The translations under genes and the position numbers were made by a program. This document shows, piece by piece, positions 1 through 13,760 of a DNA stretch of 15,986 bases; within the stretch, counting starts at the first letter, position 1, and every line of letters begins with the position of its first letter. This DNA is from Solirubrobacterales bacterium 70-9 (lineage in GTDB: Bacteria; Actinomycetota; Thermoleophilia; Solirubrobacterales; 70-9): the NCBI GenBank assembly GCA_001898095.1, contig MKSH01000039.1, positions 4,571 to 20,556 of the forward strand, written 5' to 3'. The notes under the pieces were generated by a model. The model worked only from the letters and a program-made list of their open reading frames with translations. It was not told the origin of the DNA and made no database searches.

Positions 1-10
1 CGCCCCCCAG

Positions 11-59
11 GTCGATGGGCCGAAAAGCGCTGATATAGAGCGCTTTCCGGCCCATCGAC
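11..59. repeat. Hairpin A, copy 1: 21-bp stem, GATATAG loop
   Basis: Bases 11-31 pair with 39-59 (20 of 21 pairs; A23/C47 is the only mismatch) around the 7-nt loop GATATAG at 32-38. The second copy at 13003-13051 is perfectly paired. Relative to that copy, the third pair from the base is C-G here and T-A there, so both strands changed together. There is no T-tract, so this is not a standard intrinsic terminator. Confidence 0.9.
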
Positions 60-73
60 ATCTCGGCCCTCAC

Positions 74-99
74 GGAAGGGTCACTTCGTGGCGCCTTCC
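74..99 (+). repeat. Small bulged hairpin, copy 1
   Basis: GGAAGG (74-79) pairs with CCTTCC (94-99). A bulged G (93) follows, and GTCAC (80-84) pairs with GTGGC (88-92) across the loop TTC. Copy 2 (13066-13092) has the same 6-bp, bulged-G, 5-bp plan, with a T-A pair where this copy has T-G. The shared plan suggests a structured RNA or ssDNA fold, but the stem is short enough that this is only moderately supported. Confidence 0.55.
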
Positions 100-195
100 C
101 TCGGGGAACGTGGAGTTCCCGGTGTCTCCCGCACGGCTCTCCGGCTTATCCCGCACGTCACCCGCACGGGACCCGCGCCCTCGCCCTCTCCCCGT

Positions 196-255
196 GACCC
201 GGCCCTCTCGTAGGCGGTCACAGCCTGCCCGGACCGCCTACGAGAGGGCCGGGTC
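196..255 (+). repeat. Hairpin B, copy 1: perfect 24-bp stem, ACAGCCTGCCCG loop
   Basis: Bases 196-219 pair perfectly with 232-255 around the 12-nt loop ACAGCCTGCCCG (220-231). The element at 13177-13236 is identical apart from one compensated pair: C199-G252 here, G13180-C13233 there. A third hairpin at 12869-12928 shares exactly the 24-bp stem length and the loop, on the opposite strand. It could act as a terminator, but an invariant loop with a changing stem is not what terminators show. Confidence 0.95.
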
Positions 256-270
256 CTTGGTCGTCCCTTG

Positions 271-5894: not shown

Positions 5895-6734
5895 CTAGAT
5901 GTTTTTCGCGTTCACGCCGATCGCCGCCGAGAGGGTCGCGCCGGTGATGTAGCGCGCCTGCTCGGAGGCGAGGAAGAGGACCGCGTCGGAGATGTCGTCG
6001 GTCTCCGCGTAGGGGACCGGGAGCACGTTGACGCTCTGGAACGCGGGCAGCGCGTCCTCCAGGGTCGGGTTCTCCAGGTCGGGGCGGAAGAGCTTGTAGG
6101 AGGCCTCGTTTTTCATCATCCTCGTGTCGACCGAGCTCGGGCAGACGACGTTGGCGGTGATCCCGCGCGGCGCCAGCTCCAGCGCCAGGCTCTTCACCAT
6201 CCCGATCAGCCCCCACTTCGCCGCCGCGTAGTGGCCGATGTTCTCCCAGCCGGCGCGGCCCGCCATCGAGGAGGTGGCCACCACCCGGCCCGCCTCCGAC
6301 CCGTACATATGGGGCACCGCGGCGCGCACCGTGTTGAAGGCGCCGGTGAGGTTGACGTCGATCATCGTCCCCCAGGTCTCGGCGCTCATCGTCGCCAGCT
6401 CGCCGAAGGTGCAGATGCCGGCGTTGACGACGAGGATGTCGAGCCCGCCGAAGGCCTCGGCCGCCTGGCCCACCGCCGCTTCCATCTCCGCCAGCGAGCG
6501 GATGTCGGCGACCAGCGCCGCGGCGCGCCCGCCCTCGGCGGCGACCAGCTCCGCGGTCTCCTCCAGCTCCGCGCGCGAGCCGAGCGGGTAGGCGACCGTC
6601 TCCATCTCCGCGGCGGCGATGTCCAGCACGGCGACGTCGGCGCCCTCGCGGGCGAAGCGCACCGCGTGGTTGCGTCCCTGACCGCGGGCGCCACCGGTGA
6701 CCAGCACCCGCCGCCCCTCGCAGCGCCCGCTCAC
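5895..6734 (-). CDS. Mycofactocin-type SDR family oxidoreductase (second of tandem pair)
   Basis: This is a 279-aa short-chain dehydrogenase. The cofactor motif TGGARGQG (13-20) followed by RNHAVRFAREGADV, a small insertion before the C-terminal half of the Rossmann fold, and the catalytic Ser155/156, Tyr169 and Lys173 (HYAAAKWG) match the mycofactocin-coupled, carveol-dehydrogenase-like SDRs. In that family NAD is bound very tightly and electrons leave through the peptide-derived redox carrier mycofactocin. No mycofactocin biosynthesis gene is in this window, so dependence is inferred. GTG 6734 overlaps the stop of the related SDR upstream by 4 bp. Likely role: oxidation of a secondary alcohol to a ketone, or the reverse, feeding the CoA pathway. 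Confidence 0.92.
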   Translation of the reverse strand: MSGRCEGRRVLVTGGARGQGRNHAVRFAREGADVAVLDIAAAEMETVAYPLGSRAELEETAELVAAEGGRAAALVADIRSLAEMEAAVGQAAEAFGGLDILVVNAGICTFGELATMSAETWGTMIDVNLTGAFNTVRAAVPHMYGSEAGRVVATSSMAGRAGWENIGHYAAAKWGLIGMVKSLALELAPRGITANVVCPSSVDTRMMKNEASYKLFRPDLENPTLEDALPAFQSVNVLPVPYAETDDISDAVLFLASEQARYITGATLSAAIGVNAKNI

Positions 6735-7567
6735 GCCGCGGTCCTCGCGTTCCAGCCGAGCGCCACCGGGACCGCCTCGCCGGTGATCATCCGCGCTTCG
6801 TCGGAGGCGAGGAAGAGGACCGTGTCGGAGATGTCGTCGGGCTGGACCCAGGGGATCGGGATCGGGTTCAGCTCGGTGAAGGCCCCCTCGACGTCGGCCA
6901 TCGTGTAGCTCGACTGGTCGGGGAGGAAGAGCTCGCGGAAGGCCTCGTTCTGGATCATCGCCGTGTCGACCGAGGTCGGGCAGACGGCGTTCACGGTCAC
7001 CCCGTGCTCGGCCAGCTCCAGCGCCAGGCTCTTCACCAGGCCGATCACTCCCCACTTGGCGGCGACGTAGTGGCCGATGTTGGGAGCGCCCACCCGGCCG
7101 ACCACCGAGGAGGTGGCGACGATCCGGCCGCTGCCGCGCTCGGCCATGTGCCCGGCCACCGCGCGCAGCGTCTTGAAGACGCCGCCGAGGTTGATGTCGA
7201 TCATGTTCTGCCATTCCTCGTCGGACATGGCGGCGATCGTCGAGACGCCCGCGATCCCGGCGTTGGCGACGGCGATGTCGATGCCGCCGAAGGCCTCGAT
7301 CCCGGCGGCGACGACGCGGCCGAGCGCCGCCGTGTCGCGGACGTCGGCCTCCATCGCCACCGCGCGGCCGCCCGCCGCCTCGACCGAGGCGACGGTCTCC
7401 TCCAGGTCGGTCGCCGAGGCGAGCCCGTAGGGGACGGTCCCCAGGTCAGCGCAGCGATCGCTGAGCACGAGGTCGGCGCCCTCGGCGGCGAAGCGCACCG
7501 CGTGCGAGCGTCCCTGACCGCGGCCGGCGCCGGTCACCAGCGCCACCTTGCCCTCGAACCTAGGCAT
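6731..7567 (-). CDS. Mycofactocin-type SDR family oxidoreductase (first of tandem pair)
   Basis: This is a 278-aa short-chain dehydrogenase with TGAGRGQG (12-19), the NAG segment (ANAGI, 101-105), Ser153/154, Tyr167 and Lys171 (HYVAAKWG). It carries the GRGQGRSHAVRFAAEGAD pattern of mycofactocin-coupled SDRs and the longer C-terminal substrate loop of that group. It is a clear paralogue of the next gene, so the pair arose by tandem duplication. The two may act on different stereoisomers or on successive hydroxyl groups (inference). ATG 7567 overlaps the upstream hydratase-like gene by 8 bp and is preceded by GAGAAGG. It differs from the plus-strand SDR at 11993, which lacks these marks. Confidence 0.92.
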   Translation of the reverse strand: MPRFEGKVALVTGAGRGQGRSHAVRFAAEGADLVLSDRCADLGTVPYGLASATDLEETVASVEAAGGRAVAMEADVRDTAALGRVVAAGIEAFGGIDIAVANAGIAGVSTIAAMSDEEWQNMIDINLGGVFKTLRAVAGHMAERGSGRIVATSSVVGRVGAPNIGHYVAAKWGVIGLVKSLALELAEHGVTVNAVCPTSVDTAMIQNEAFRELFLPDQSSYTMADVEGAFTELNPIPIPWVQPDDISDTVLFLASDEARMITGEAVPVALGWNARTAA

Positions 7568-10691: not shown

Positions 10692-11993
10692 ATGTGGGAT
10701 TTCTCGACCGAGCCGGAGTTCGAGGCGAAGCTGGCCTGGATGCGCGACTTCATGGTCGCCGAGGTCTACCCGCTGGAGGCGCTGGAGGGGATCGAGGAGG
10801 CCGACTTCGACCGCCTGCTGGAGCCGCTGCGCGAGCAGGTCAAGGACCAGGGACTGTGGGCCGGCCACCTGCCGCCCGAGCACGGCGGCCAGGGTTTCGG
10901 CGCGCTCGAGCTGGGGCTGATGAACGAGATCACCGGCGCCTCGATCTTCGGGCCGATGGTCTTCGGCTCACAGGCTCCCGACGCCGGCAACGCCGAGCTG
11001 CTCGCCGCCGCCGGAACCGACGACCAGAAGGCGCGCTGGCTGGAGCCGCTGCTGGCGGGCGAGGTGAAGAGCGCCTTCTCGATGACCGAGCCGAACTCGG
11101 CCGGCTCCGACCCGACCCTGCTGCGGACCGTCGCCACCCAGGTCGACGGCGGCTGGAAGATCGACGGGCTGAAGTGGTTCACCTCGAACGGCTCGGCGGC
11201 CGACTTCCTGATCGCGATGGTGGTGACCGACCCCGAGGCGGCGCCGCGGTCGCGCGCCACGATGATGCTGGTGCCGACCGACGCCGAGGGCCTGCGTATC
11301 GTCCGCGACGTGCCGACGATGGAGGACCCGGTGGGCGAGCGCGGCCGCTTCCGCGCCGGCGGCTTCGGCCACGCCGAAATCTCCTACGAGGGCGTCTTCG
11401 TCCCCGATGCCGACGTGCTCGGCCCGGTCGGCCAGGGCTTCGCGATGGCCCAGCGGCGGCTCGGCCCGGGGCGGATCCAGCACTGCATGCGCTGGCTGGG
11501 CCAGGGCCGGCGGGCCTTCGAGATGCTCTGCGAGCGGGCGGTCTCCCGCCACGCCTTCGGCACCACGCTGGGCGAGAAGGGCGTCGTCCGCGAGTGGATC
11601 GCCGACTCGGCCGCGGAAATCGAGGCGGCCCGGCTGATGACCCTGCACGCCGCCTGGAAGATCGACCGGGTGGGCGCCAAAGAGGCGCGCCAGGAGATCG
11701 GGATGATCAAGTACTACGGCGCCGGCGTCCTCTACCGGGTGATCGACCGGGCGATCCAGGTCCACGGCGGCCTCGGCTACTCGACCGACATGCCGCTGGA
11801 GTCGATGTACCGCAACGCCCGCGCGGCGCGCATCTACGACGGCGCCGACGAGGTCCACCGCGACAACGTCGCCCGCCGCATCCTCGCCGCCTACCAGCCG
11901 CGCGAGGTGCCGACCGAGAACGTGCCGGAGCGGCGCCGAGCGGCGGCGGAGAAGTTCGCCGAGCTGATCGACGTCGCCTCGCTGGACCTCTGA
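10692..11993 (+). CDS. Acyl-CoA dehydrogenase of the ACAD10/11 type
   Basis: This is a 433-aa flavoprotein. The middle-domain motif SAFSMTEPNSAGSD (127-140) is followed by a long C-terminal domain carrying IQHCMRWLGQGRRAFEMLCER and EIGMIK, and ending with IYDGADEVH (381-389). These segments resemble the dehydrogenase half of human ACAD11/ACAD10, including Asp383 where medium-chain enzymes have the catalytic Glu (YEGT). ACAD11-type enzymes and bacterial LvaC act with an APH-family kinase on 4-hydroxyacyl-CoA, passing through a 4-phospho intermediate. A kinase of that type is encoded at 4858-5880. ATG 10692 follows the thiolase stop by one base with AAGGA upstream; the stop overlaps the next ATG (TGATG). 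The family call is firm, the substrate inferred. Confidence 0.94.
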   Translation: MWDFSTEPEFEAKLAWMRDFMVAEVYPLEALEGIEEADFDRLLEPLREQVKDQGLWAGHLPPEHGGQGFGALELGLMNEITGASIFGPMVFGSQAPDAGNAELLAAAGTDDQKARWLEPLLAGEVKSAFSMTEPNSAGSDPTLLRTVATQVDGGWKIDGLKWFTSNGSAADFLIAMVVTDPEAAPRSRATMMLVPTDAEGLRIVRDVPTMEDPVGERGRFRAGGFGHAEISYEGVFVPDADVLGPVGQGFAMAQRRLGPGRIQHCMRWLGQGRRAFEMLCERAVSRHAFGTTLGEKGVVREWIADSAAEIEAARLMTLHAAWKIDRVGAKEARQEIGMIKYYGAGVLYRVIDRAIQVHGGLGYSTDMPLESMYRNARAARIYDGADEVHRDNVARRILAAYQPREVPTENVPERRRAAAEKFAELIDVASLDL

Positions 11994-12796
11994 TGCCTGA
12001 CGCGCGGGCCGAGGAGCGCCGCGCCGCCTTGGTCCTCGGCGGGTCGGGCGGGATCGGCCTGGCCATAGCCGCGATGCTGGCGGCGGAGGGCTATGACCTG
12101 ACGGTCCAGGGCCGGCGCGACGAGCGGGTCGAGGCGGCGGTGGCGGCGCTCGGCGGGGCCGGCGGCGGAGTGAGCGCGGGAGCGCCGGGTGAGGCCGTCG
12201 GCGCCGGCGCCGGCGAAGCGTCCGCGAAGGCCGGCGACGGGGTCGTCGGCGTGGCCGCCAACCTTGCCGAGGAGGCCGAGATCGAACGGGTCGTCGCCGG
12301 CCACGCCGAGCGCTACGGCCGCCTCGACGTCCTCGTCGACAGCGCCGGCCTCGGCATCGGCCAGGCCATCGGCGAGATCCAGGCCCGCCACCTCGACCGC
12401 CAGACCGAGATCAACTTCCGCGCCGCCGTCCTCGCCCTGCGCGAGGCCCGCCCCCTGCTCGAGGCGGCCGGCGCCGAGCACGGCAAGGCCCTCGTCTGCC
12501 TCGTCTCCTCCTGGGCCGCCACCCATCCGCCCGCCTGGCTCTCCGTCTACGGCGCGACCAAGGCCGCCCTCGACGCCTTCGCCCGCTCCGCCCAGATCGA
12601 GCTCGAAGGCAGCGGCGTCCAGGTCACCTCGGTGTCCCCGGCCACGGTCGAGACCGAGATGACCCGCTACGCCCAAGGCGAGATCCCCGCCGAGGCGATG
12701 CTCCGCCCCACCGACGTCGCCGAGGTGGTCCGCATGCTCCTCCGCCTCTCCCCCGCCGCGCGGGTGCCGGAAGTCCGGGTCGGGCGGGCGGAGTAG
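11993..12796 (+). CDS. SDR family oxidoreductase (classical type)
   Basis: This is a 267-aa short-chain dehydrogenase. The nucleotide motif GGSGGIG (16-22), QGRR after beta-2, catalytic Ser172/173, Tyr186 and Lys190 (YGATKAA) are intact. The usual NNAG motif reads DSAG. The Arg pair after beta-2 suggests NADP(H). A Gly/Ala-rich, low-complexity segment at residues 54-83 (12152-12241) lengthens the loop where other SDRs have a few residues. It lacks the mycofactocin-type marks of the two minus-strand SDRs. It is the last gene of the plus-strand operon; its ATG overlaps the ACAD stop by one base. A keto/hydroxy interconversion in the same pathway is likely. Confidence 0.92.
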   Translation: MPDARAEERRAALVLGGSGGIGLAIAAMLAAEGYDLTVQGRRDERVEAAVAALGGAGGGVSAGAPGEAVGAGAGEASAKAGDGVVGVAANLAEEAEIERVVAGHAERYGRLDVLVDSAGLGIGQAIGEIQARHLDRQTEINFRAAVLALREARPLLEAAGAEHGKALVCLVSSWAATHPPAWLSVYGATKAALDAFARSAQIELEGSGVQVTSVSPATVETEMTRYAQGEIPAEAMLRPTDVAEVVRMLLRLSPAARVPEVRVGRAE

Positions 12797-12814
12797 GGCG
12801 GGAAGGGTTCGGGG

Positions 12815-12865
12815 GGCCCTGCGGCCGCGGACGGCGCACTTCGCGGCCCCTGCGGCCGGGGACGG
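12815..12865. repeat. Short tandem GC-rich repeat
   Basis: Two near-identical units of about 20 bp (12815-12834 and 12846-12865), each built on CCTGCGGCCG-GGACGG, lie just after the SDR stop. They precede the inverted 24-bp hairpin and may be remnants of an element arm. No function can be assigned. Confidence 0.6.
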
Positions 12866-12868
12866 TCC

Positions 12869-12928
12869 CGTCCTGGGCGTCTCGCGGCGGCCCGGGCAGG
12901 CTGTGGCCGCCGCGAGACGCCCAGGACG
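12869..12928 (-). repeat. Hairpin B, third copy, inverted: perfect 24-bp stem, same loop
   Basis: Bases 12869-12892 pair perfectly with 12905-12928. On the minus strand the loop (12893-12904) reads ACAGCCTGCCCG, identical to the loops at 220-231 and 13201-13212. Stem length (24 bp), loop length (12 nt) and total length (60 nt) are the same, and GGCGG next to the loop is shared. The rest of the stem has a different sequence yet stays fully paired. It lies 72 bp after the SDR stop and may terminate that operon, though no T-tract follows. Confidence 0.95.
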
Positions 12929-12964
12929 CGAGCCTTCCGGGGGGAGGTGCGCGGGGTCCGTGCG

Positions 12965-12995
12965 CTTGCGGGGAGTGACGCCACGCCTCCGCAAG
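12965..12995. repeat. 9-bp hairpin upstream of repeat copy 2
   Basis: CTTGCGGGG (12965-12973) pairs with CCTCCGCAAG (12987-12995 for the paired part, including one G-T), and GTG/CAC (12975-12977/12982-12984) extends it inside. It sits directly before repeat copy 2, so it may be part of that element; the matching region of copy 1 is outside the window. Confidence 0.5.
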
Positions 12996-13002
12996 GCCCC
13001 AG

Positions 13003-13051
13003 GTTGATGGGCCGAAAAGCGCTGATATAGAGCGCTTTTCGGCCCATCAAC
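13003..13051. repeat. Hairpin A, copy 2: perfect 21-bp stem, GATATAG loop
   Basis: Bases 13003-13023 pair perfectly with 13031-13051 around GATATAG (13024-13030). Compared with copy 1, one outer pair is T-A rather than C-G, and the single A/C mismatch of copy 1 is a proper A-T pair here. Confidence 0.93.
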
Positions 13052-13065
13052 ATTTGGCCTGTCAC

Positions 13066-13092
13066 GGAAGGGTCACGACCGTGACGTCTTCC
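13066..13092 (+). repeat. Small bulged hairpin, copy 2
   Basis: GGAAGG (13066-13071) pairs with TCTTCC (13087-13092, one G-T), then a bulged G (13086), then GTCAC (13072-13076) with GTGAC (13081-13085) around the loop GACC. It has the same plan as 74-99. Confidence 0.55.
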
Positions 13093-13176
13093 CTTGGTGA
13101 ACGTGACGTTTCCCTCGTCTTCGACACGCATTTCCCCCGAGACATGCACGGGATGCGCACCCACCCTCTCCCCACA

Positions 13177-13236
13177 GACGCGGCCCTCTCGTAGGCGGTC
13201 ACAGCCTGCCCGGACCGCCTACGAGAGGGCCGCGTC
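13177..13236 (+). repeat. Hairpin B, copy 2: perfect 24-bp stem, ACAGCCTGCCCG loop
   Basis: Bases 13177-13200 pair perfectly with 13213-13236 around the loop ACAGCCTGCCCG (13201-13212). It is identical to copy 1 except for one swapped base pair, G13180-C13233 in place of C199-G252. It ends 33 bp from the 3' end of the SnoaL-like gene and could act as a terminator on either strand. Confidence 0.95.
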
Positions 13237-13268
13237 CCTTTCCCCGTCCCTTCCCAGCGAGCCGGCCC

Positions 13269-13760
13269 TCAGGCCGACCGCGGCAGGGGGTTGAAGCGCC
13301 AGCCCTCCTGCTTCGGCTGCGTCCCGGCGACGAGGAGGCGGCGCTCGTCGATCAGCCAGTCGCCGGAAGGGGCGCGGACGAGGACGTCCTCGTAGCGGGC
13401 GTGGAGGCTCCAGGGCTCGCCGCGGTGGGGCTGGTGCCAGGCGTGGACGACGCTCGCGGCGCGGGCTCGGTCGGAGCCTTCGAAGTCGATCGAGACGTTG
13501 CCGAGGAGATGGCTGGTGGCCTCGAAGAGGGCGAGGTCGTTCTCGGCCTGGATGCGGCGCGCCTCGGCGCCGGGGGTGCGCGCGTCGGGGCCGTAGTCGG
13601 CGCGGCAGTCGGCGGTGAAGCAGGCGGCGACGGCGTCGGGGTCGTTCACGTCGCAGGCGCGACAGTAGGCGAAGAGGAGCTCGCGGATCGCCTCGCGGTC
13701 GGCGAGGTGCGAATCGGTGTCGGGCGTGGCGGTCACGTCTCTACCGTCAACCCGCGCCAC
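13269..13760 (-). CDS. NTF2/SnoaL-like fold protein
   Basis: This is a small cone-fold protein of 163 aa from GTG 13760, or 155 aa from GTG 13736. The pattern DREAIRELLFAYCRACDVNDPDAVAACFTADC near the N terminus, then HLLGN, then HARYEDVLVRAPSGDWLIDERRL is typical of the SnoaL-like polyketide cyclase/dehydratase and ring-hydroxylating dioxygenase beta-subunit-like group. Such proteins bind small hydrophobic ligands and may act as isomerases or dehydratases; no specific reaction can be read. Neither start has a clear ribosome site; 13736 places the conserved DREAI motif closer to the N terminus, as in most relatives. It is divergent from the luciferase-like gene and convergent with the SDR operon across repeat copy 2. 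Confidence 0.85.
   Translation of the reverse strand: MARVDGRDVTATPDTDSHLADREAIRELLFAYCRACDVNDPDAVAACFTADCRADYGPDARTPGAEARRIQAENDLALFEATSHLLGNVSIDFEGSDRARAASVVHAWHQPHRGEPWSLHARYEDVLVRAPSGDWLIDERRLLVAGTQPKQEGWRFNPLPRSA

Follow-up and report, generated by a model that had tools for sequence, protein, structure and literature searches.

The question raised by this locus is why three hairpins lying within a window of 15,986 nucleotides (the whole stretch of DNA analysed, from Solirubrobacterales bacterium 70-9) share one loop, ACAGCCTGCCCG, on stems that are not all alike. The initial annotation had placed these hairpins, each with 24 paired bases and the common loop, at 196-255, at 12869-12928 on the minus strand and at 13177-13236, and all three are indeed present there. 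It had taken the first two as the pair separated by a single swap, which is mistaken: 196-255 and 13177-13236, both of type A, have stems differing by a single C-G/G-C swap, and the stem largely unlike these two is that of 12869-12928, of type B. From the sequence comparisons presented below, the best explanation, to which we give a probability of about 0.5, is that such hairpins bound a composite mobile element that is non-autonomous, its two ends (A and B) facing outward and differing from each other. The window would be organized as follows.

1..269, plus strand: right part of a first element (inner hairpin and A end); the left (B) part, if any, lies inside a run of N just upstream of the window
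11..59, no strand assigned: inner hairpin of family C, with 21-base arms, 95% complementary, around GATATAG
196..255, plus strand: A-type end hairpin, 24 bp, loop ACAGCCTGCCCG, 88.5 bits with the covariance model
256..269, plus strand: A-side outer tail, CTTGGTCGTCCCTT
11993..12796, plus strand: flanking gene running into the second element, short-chain dehydrogenase
12810..12868, no strand assigned: B-side outer repeat units of the GGCCCCTGCGGCCGGGGACGG type, edges approximate
12869..12928, minus strand: B-type end hairpin, 24 bp, loop ACAGCCTGCCCG, stem unlike A, 78.4 bits
12929..13176, no strand assigned: interior of the second element, made of linkers and inner hairpin C
12994..13060, no strand assigned: inner hairpin C, with perfect central arms (13003-13023 and 13031-13051) around GATATAG
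13177..13236, plus strand: A-type end hairpin, 24 bp, loop ACAGCCTGCCCG, 87.5 bits
13237..13252, plus strand: A-side outer tail, CCTTTCCCCGTCCCTT
13269..13736, minus strand: convergent flanking gene, SnoaL-like

Folded on the strand carrying the loop, the three hairpins reach -54.8 to -58.0 kcal/mol (z from -9.5 to -9.9), values that were never equalled by shuffled sequences. Prediction gives the opposite strand a higher stability than the loop strand (-59.6 to -62.8 kcal/mol), owing to extra pairs inside the loop, which speaks against a fold read on the loop strand. The second element occupies 12797-13268, i.e., the gap between the two convergent genes, and this 472-nt gap folds at z = -13.6. 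Such folding is in line with an element acting at the RNA level, that is, bidirectional terminators, protectors of mRNA 3' ends or sites for a loop-reading RNA-binding protein, spread by recombination and kept by selection; we consider this explanation unlikely, though worth weighing at several points below. Against it, a simple scan of 12700-13400 returned 0 terminator-like sites and no T-run was found in the A-side tails. The hairpins are like Rho-independent terminators in being stable and lying at gene 3' ends, and unlike them in that no T-run was found in the scanned interval or the tails, in their near-fixed 12-nt loop and in their occurrence in only six of the searched genomes. A known Rfam RNA was rejected: the window gave 0 matches at the gathering score, and the nine hits that 12797-13268 gave at a relaxed threshold (E up to 1), mostly miRNA precursors, were all below that score.

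Elsewhere in the window, two adjacent similar genes (5895-7567) contain direct repeats that are 836-839 bp apart and 72-82% identical, the first of the two genes matching short-chain dehydrogenases. Thiolase, acyl-CoA dehydrogenase and enoyl-CoA hydratase are also encoded.

Paired ends and mosaic interior

The initial annotation had regarded the single hairpin as the unit, a view that had to be abandoned, as two different hairpins, A and B, delimit a single co-inherited element. Among adjacent hairpins less than 900 bp apart, the loop strand faced outward in 64/66 pairs, B being inverted in both exceptions, and 62 of these 66 close pairs consisted of one A and one B (N masks part of one same-type pair, L040); the named-record subset of this set overlaps two of the genomes, G009 and G003. 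The A/B pair sets used for spacing, subtype and identity were gathered by exact loop, so that the loops within them are identical by design, and any element whose loop has changed is counted as a single. From hairpin to hairpin, the element measures about 320-560 bp. Over 26 pairs from the source genome (G000) and the window, the loops were 261-502 bp apart, with a spacing of 465-467 bp in 8/26. Subtypes were strictly matched in the 26 G000 pairs, B1 being associated with A-TAGG (11/11) and B2 with other A types (15/15; Fisher p = 1.3e-7). Because the A and B subtypes match in 26/26, the unit of inheritance is B-interior-A. The two end hairpins align with each other and are homologous. Outside A, a short tail (CCTT..CGTCCCTT) is found, and outside B, repeated units of roughly 30-36 nt. 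A short repeat, approximately GCTGGCGCCCGG / CCGGGCGCCAGC, was also observed just outside elements in L121, L129, L140 and L153 and in the A-side flanks of L006, L007, L032 and L076; in L140, it lies on both sides of the element.

Linkers and additional near-perfect hairpins make up the interior, whose composition is too mosaic for a single consensus of the 26 pairs, which was rejected. In several inner-hairpin families, the outer stem is kept while the inner stem and the loop are swapped together. Further near-perfect hairpin families of this build (GTTGATGGGCCGAAAA..., CTGAGTGAGTTGA..., CTCCGCTGTTCCTTATG... and GTGCGTTCGCA...) were noticed at 11-59 and 12994-13060 of the window and at other loci, with related forms in G000, G007 and G009. 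In G000, the loops of inner family D are found both ways (6:7), and those of families C and E are mostly held in one direction (9:1 and 5:1, respectively). The end loops thus keep their orientation, though not uniquely, as inner C and E mostly keep theirs.

These observations bear on a second alternative, in which the hairpins are passive repeats left by past amplification, the arm pairs being corrected by template switching during replication so that paired changes arise without selection. The exchange of both arms together in several inner families agrees with it, as does spacer inversion, a template-switching outcome reported in PMC8604942 and seen here in D and in the inverted B of 2/66 pairs. 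The orientation held by the end loops, unlike those of D, argues in the other direction, with a contrast limited by the behavior of C and E. Overall, this alternative appears distinctly improbable.

Family size, distribution and genomic location

The source genome (4.2 Mb in 278 contigs) contains the exact loop 88 times on the forward and 92 times on the reverse strand, against 0 and 1 for the reversed pattern. In the G000 stretches examined, the flanks of the exact-loop matches are paired except in L004, setting apart three matches that N obscures in part and another displaced by a single-base gap. The initial annotation had proposed that its hairpin family would fall if only these three copies existed or if the loops occurred without paired flanks; the search returned neither outcome. 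Across 61 genomes, exact-loop matches numbered 16-212 in six members of this genus and 0-4 in the remaining 55. With the pattern ACAGCCTGCCMG, in which position 11 is C or A, the counts were 196 in G000, 313 in G006, 311 in G009, 86 in G008, 67 in G007 and 63 in G003, against 0-3 in the remaining 6 of the 12 genus genomes and 0-1 for the reversed control; these copy numbers are counts of loops, not of verified hairpins. Position 11 is mostly A in G006, where the 313 matches with either base compare with 49 with C. The 12-nt loop, described as invariant in the initial annotation, is so in the three hairpins of the window; family-wide, it is nearly constant, at about 11/12 positions, as scored on hairpins of the six genomes collected with at most two loop changes allowed, the variation lying mainly at position 11. 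The 14 loop matches outside the family (L043-L055 and L059) have unpaired flanks. In L021, L033, L041 and L066, the end hairpin takes a variant form whose loop region is enlarged (GCAAGCGGGCAGCCTGCC...) and which escapes the exact-loop search.

The view of the initial annotation that the hairpins form an intergenic family of many copies, its stems covarying, is supported by the loop counts, the hairpin alignment and the location of the clusters. The covariance-model search that it suggested was also run, with a model built from 64 aligned hairpins. Of the 12 genus genomes, the six rich in loops were matched, and under stricter filters these six were again the only ones matched among 232 from the order Solirubrobacterales. 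Its counts of 133 to at least 150 per rich genome include both strands of each hairpin (62 matches correspond to 31 hairpins). On 200 kb of G007, from the stretches sampled below, it found 9 distinct hairpins, and none on 200 kb of the hairpin-free genomes. An exact 24-nt core occurs in at least 78 named records, all of them, among the matches listed, from the MAGs SZAS-14, SZAS-10 and RYN_247, which are labelled Actinomycetota or Solirubrobacterales. Many listed copies lie close to contig starts. A viral origin was rejected, the exact core having 0 matches in viral contigs. Within the 12 genus genomes, the rich ones are larger than the hairpin-free ones (3.8-4.7 vs 2.4-3.4 Mb). In sampled stretches of genomes among G000, G002, G007, G009 and G010, the median convergent gap was 81 and 78 bp in two rich genomes vs 15 and 21 bp in two free ones; perfect intergenic hairpins of at least 14 bp, counted in these stretches as well, reached 8.5 and 11.7 per 100 kb in the rich pair and 1.0 in either free genome.

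Genes were called with a custom GC-frame script rather than a standard gene finder. According to these calls, no hairpin cluster lies inside a gene, all being between genes. Gaps between convergent genes held 35/59 clusters in G000 (background 11/112), 10/26 in G009 (93/779) and 8/12 in the four other genomes (0/20), clusters at stretch edges (4, 39 and 7, respectively) being omitted. Convergent gaps therefore account for the majority of clusters in G000 and the four others, but for 38% in G009. This enrichment is a point in favor of an RNA-level role. Relative to tandem genes, the elements are oriented 22:14, which speaks against such a role, and on this ground a directional mRNA function was rejected.

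Orthologous gaps were then compared between G000 and G009. Among 13 adjacent ortholog pairs, 9 were without an element, 4 had one in a single species and 0 in both; once enlarged to 16 gaps, the comparison gave 12, 4 and 0. The difference is visible in the lengths of orthologous gaps (679 vs 75 bp; 31 vs 923 bp). This sample leans toward empty gaps, because a gap could be compared only if its two flanking genes shared a G009 contig, because these assemblies are interrupted at the repeats, and because several stretches ended just short of known hairpin matches. The synteny comparison shows differences in presence and absence at the sequence level, not a rate. When loci were picked for holding elements, five orthologous gaps were occupied in both species (L010/L093, L013/L110, L066/L129, L074/L121 and L005/L153), the A/B order being reversed and the interior different in L010/L093. 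These five gaps would fit vertical persistence or insertion hot spots. In L186 (2150-2264), the G009 ortholog of the L035 gap, which is without the element, another inverted repeat was observed, with arms of about 25 bp and a centre of roughly 50 nt.

The absence of the element from some orthologous gaps argues against the RNA-level explanation. Together with the copy number, it is what would be expected of a classical DDE-type MITE, whose terminal inverted repeats would be A and B, the parent insertion sequence being lost and the folding incidental; the homology and inverted arrangement of the two ends agree with this as well. A DDE end needs no palindrome of its own, whereas each end here forms by itself a palindrome, about 24 bp long, whose two arms covary. 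In addition, no clear target-site duplication was seen by eye in four empty-gap comparisons, in which the outer edges were ragged and the flanks diverged. We therefore hold this third alternative to be very unlikely.

Stem changes, loop conservation and strand asymmetry

An alignment of 64 hairpins, chosen from 105 distinct ones, was used to follow stem changes. Of its 1363 pair cells, 94.7% were paired, compared with 85.0% after shuffling and 34-52% with slid partners. Changes on both sides affected 13 of the 22 counted pairs and 126 cells (shuffled, 8.0 and 44.6); three column pairs, in which the alignment gap is placed differently in the two arms, are omitted from this count. Further pair types, one of five covariation measures, numbered 26 vs 23.6 and were not clearly above shuffles (65/500). 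Of the argument by which the initial annotation concluded that the fold and the loop are selected, the covarying stems and the nearly fixed loop are supported; paired change alone is no proof of selection. Indeed, template switching between arms has been reported, in PMC8604942, to homogenize inverted repeats and to invert spacers. Because template switching homogenizes the arms of inverted repeats, compensatory stem change is insufficient to establish selection on the fold, and any case for selection must draw on the conserved loop and its orientation, on the asymmetry of the wobble pairs and on hairpins that evolve slowly beside fast linkers. The fixation of about 11/12 loop positions in the six-genome hairpins goes against passive repeats.

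The contrast in rate is illustrated by the eight copies of the 467 class, in which pairwise identity was 99.2% for the B hairpin, 94% for the G hairpin, 78% for the F hairpin, and 85% and 87% for two linkers, the A hairpin being neither located nor scored. In wider sets, the A and B hairpins were 84-97% identical and the adjoining inner linkers 60-80%. This slow evolution suggests maintenance of the hairpins in place, beyond what mobility alone would need, and as such counts against the mobile-element reading, although the high identity of the B hairpin next to its linkers is also among the points in favor of recognition of the ends. Conserved hairpins with drifting linkers would in turn suit an element acting as RNA.

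Non-Watson-Crick pairs are unequally distributed on the loop strand. Among 146 distinct hairpins, G-T/T-G pairs numbered 43 and A-C/C-A pairs 15 (p = 3e-4 if independent), pair 3, which is G-T in one lineage, being excluded. Counted as species-position events, the ratio becomes 30:14 (p = 0.02), and only 17:8 when collapsed to position and type. By end type, it was 26:7 for A alone and 16:7 for B alone (p = 0.09). This modest bias hints that the fold would be read on the loop strand and, together with the end-loop orientation, would favor strand-specific recognition. Being strand-specific, it counts against passive repeats, and an excess of G-U-type wobble on the loop strand is also what an RNA-level element would leave. 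In the inner hairpins, read on the strand from B to A, no such bias was seen (5:11, not significant), a result that weakens the RNA-level explanation and led us to reject a single RNA read through the whole element.

Mechanism, driving factor and relation to known systems

At the level of sequence, the comparisons show a high copy number restricted to six of the searched genomes, ends that are paired and co-inherited, occupied and empty versions of the same gaps, paired stem changes, a near-fixed loop and enrichment in convergent gaps. In the mobile-element reading, the whole element would be copied as one. A factor supplied in trans would recognize each end hairpin on the loop strand through the loop and the loop-proximal stem, the recognized form being most likely a single-stranded DNA hairpin. 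Insertions would persist chiefly where two genes meet at their 3' ends; there, the stable hairpins may in addition terminate or protect transcripts arriving from either side. Template switching between arms was probably the source of many paired changes in the stems, and the loop and its orientation would be kept by selection or continued mobility. Three points limit this reading to even odds: the bias of the synteny sample, the better folding of the opposite strand and the orientation that some inner hairpins keep as well.

A more specific version, in which hairpin ends of a new kind of mobile element would be joined by a loop-loop (kissing) contact forming a single-stranded synapse for a non-Y1 enzyme, seems to us a long shot. 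Since A and B face outward with a shared loop, any single strand of the element has the loop in one of its end hairpins and the complementary sequence in the other. The A and B stems differ and would be unable to cross-pair fully, and a kissing contact would account for pairs being nearly always A and B. The loop complementarity between ends is automatic from inverted repeats, and in four rare loop variants (L021, L024, L078 and L087) the partner loop does not match, which counts against such a contact.

Enzyme families that might drive the element were searched across the 12 genus genomes, which are incomplete assemblies. The Y1/RAYT family (PF01797) was found in 0/12 (control positive in 5/14), the IS91 type (PF04986) in 0/12 with a control that was silent too, the reverse transcriptase (PF00078) in 2/12 and IS110 (PF02371) in 4/12. 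None of the four tracks the six rich genomes, a point against the mobile-element reading, and all were rejected as driver, with the reservation of the silent control for PF04986. Among the candidates of the initial annotation, a hairpin read by a protein and a mobile element both still lead, and its hairpin-binding transposase, if of the Y1 type, finds no counterpart in the 12 genomes. Between neighboring elements, seven distinct stretches of 1-4.5 kb contain 26 called genes, of which the 10 checked were all ordinary; as far as these 10 go, a transposase gene between elements was rejected as well. SbcD did not pass the curated cut-off in any of the 12 genus genomes, rich or free (weak sub-cut-off matches in 7), and 8/14 controls did. 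This agrees with passive repeats. Loss of SbcCD was rejected as the cause, SbcD being below the cut-off in rich and free genomes alike, so that it would be permissive at most.

Among known systems, the closest in behavior are REPINs/BIMEs, described in PMC3116915 as doublets of REPs presumed to be mobilized by RAYT. As in that description, the elements found here are extragenic, have a high copy number and consist of two inverted palindromes with a spacer, the doublet being the unit. They differ in their 24-bp stem, 12-nt loop, ends that are nearly always A and B, long interior with hairpins and the finding of no RAYT in 12 genomes. Tagged REPs (GTAG or CGTC) are reported in PMC3733652 to have stems of 5-13 bp and mostly short loops; the same source mentions CGTC REPs also without a dedicated transposase, as well as untagged REP-like families. 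Like these tagged REPs, our family has opposite-orientation dimers that lie between convergent ORFs, complementary alternatives among its stem bases, and GT pairs, whereas the stem of about 24 bp, the 12-nt loop and the absence of an unpaired GTAG or CGTC tag from the A and B flanks set it apart. A CGTC does occur at the B1 end, where it is paired with GACG and hence is not an unpaired tag.

Bacterial MITEs are non-autonomous, intergenic and bounded by inverted ends. The elements resemble them in these inverted homologous ends, intergenic position and non-autonomy, and differ in that each end is a long palindrome. Among the best-ranked titles of the open-licence literature, no account of the A/B hairpin family was found, the sole paper containing the loop string being an unrelated chicken study. 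This is consistent with the statement of the initial annotation that no named family matches, as is the Rfam result for the window. The A/B family can be filed as a kind of paired-palindrome repeat that is REPIN-like in behavior and is not a REPIN.

It would represent a large and apparently unnamed repeat family that acts like REPINs where RAYT was not found, implying either an unrecognized hairpin-reading enzyme or another route for spreading paired palindromes. The sharp split within the genus (63-313 copies of the loop in six genomes and 0-3 in the other six) may make the missing factor findable through gene content. Besides, the family offers a natural test of whether perfect palindromes are kept by selection or by template switching.
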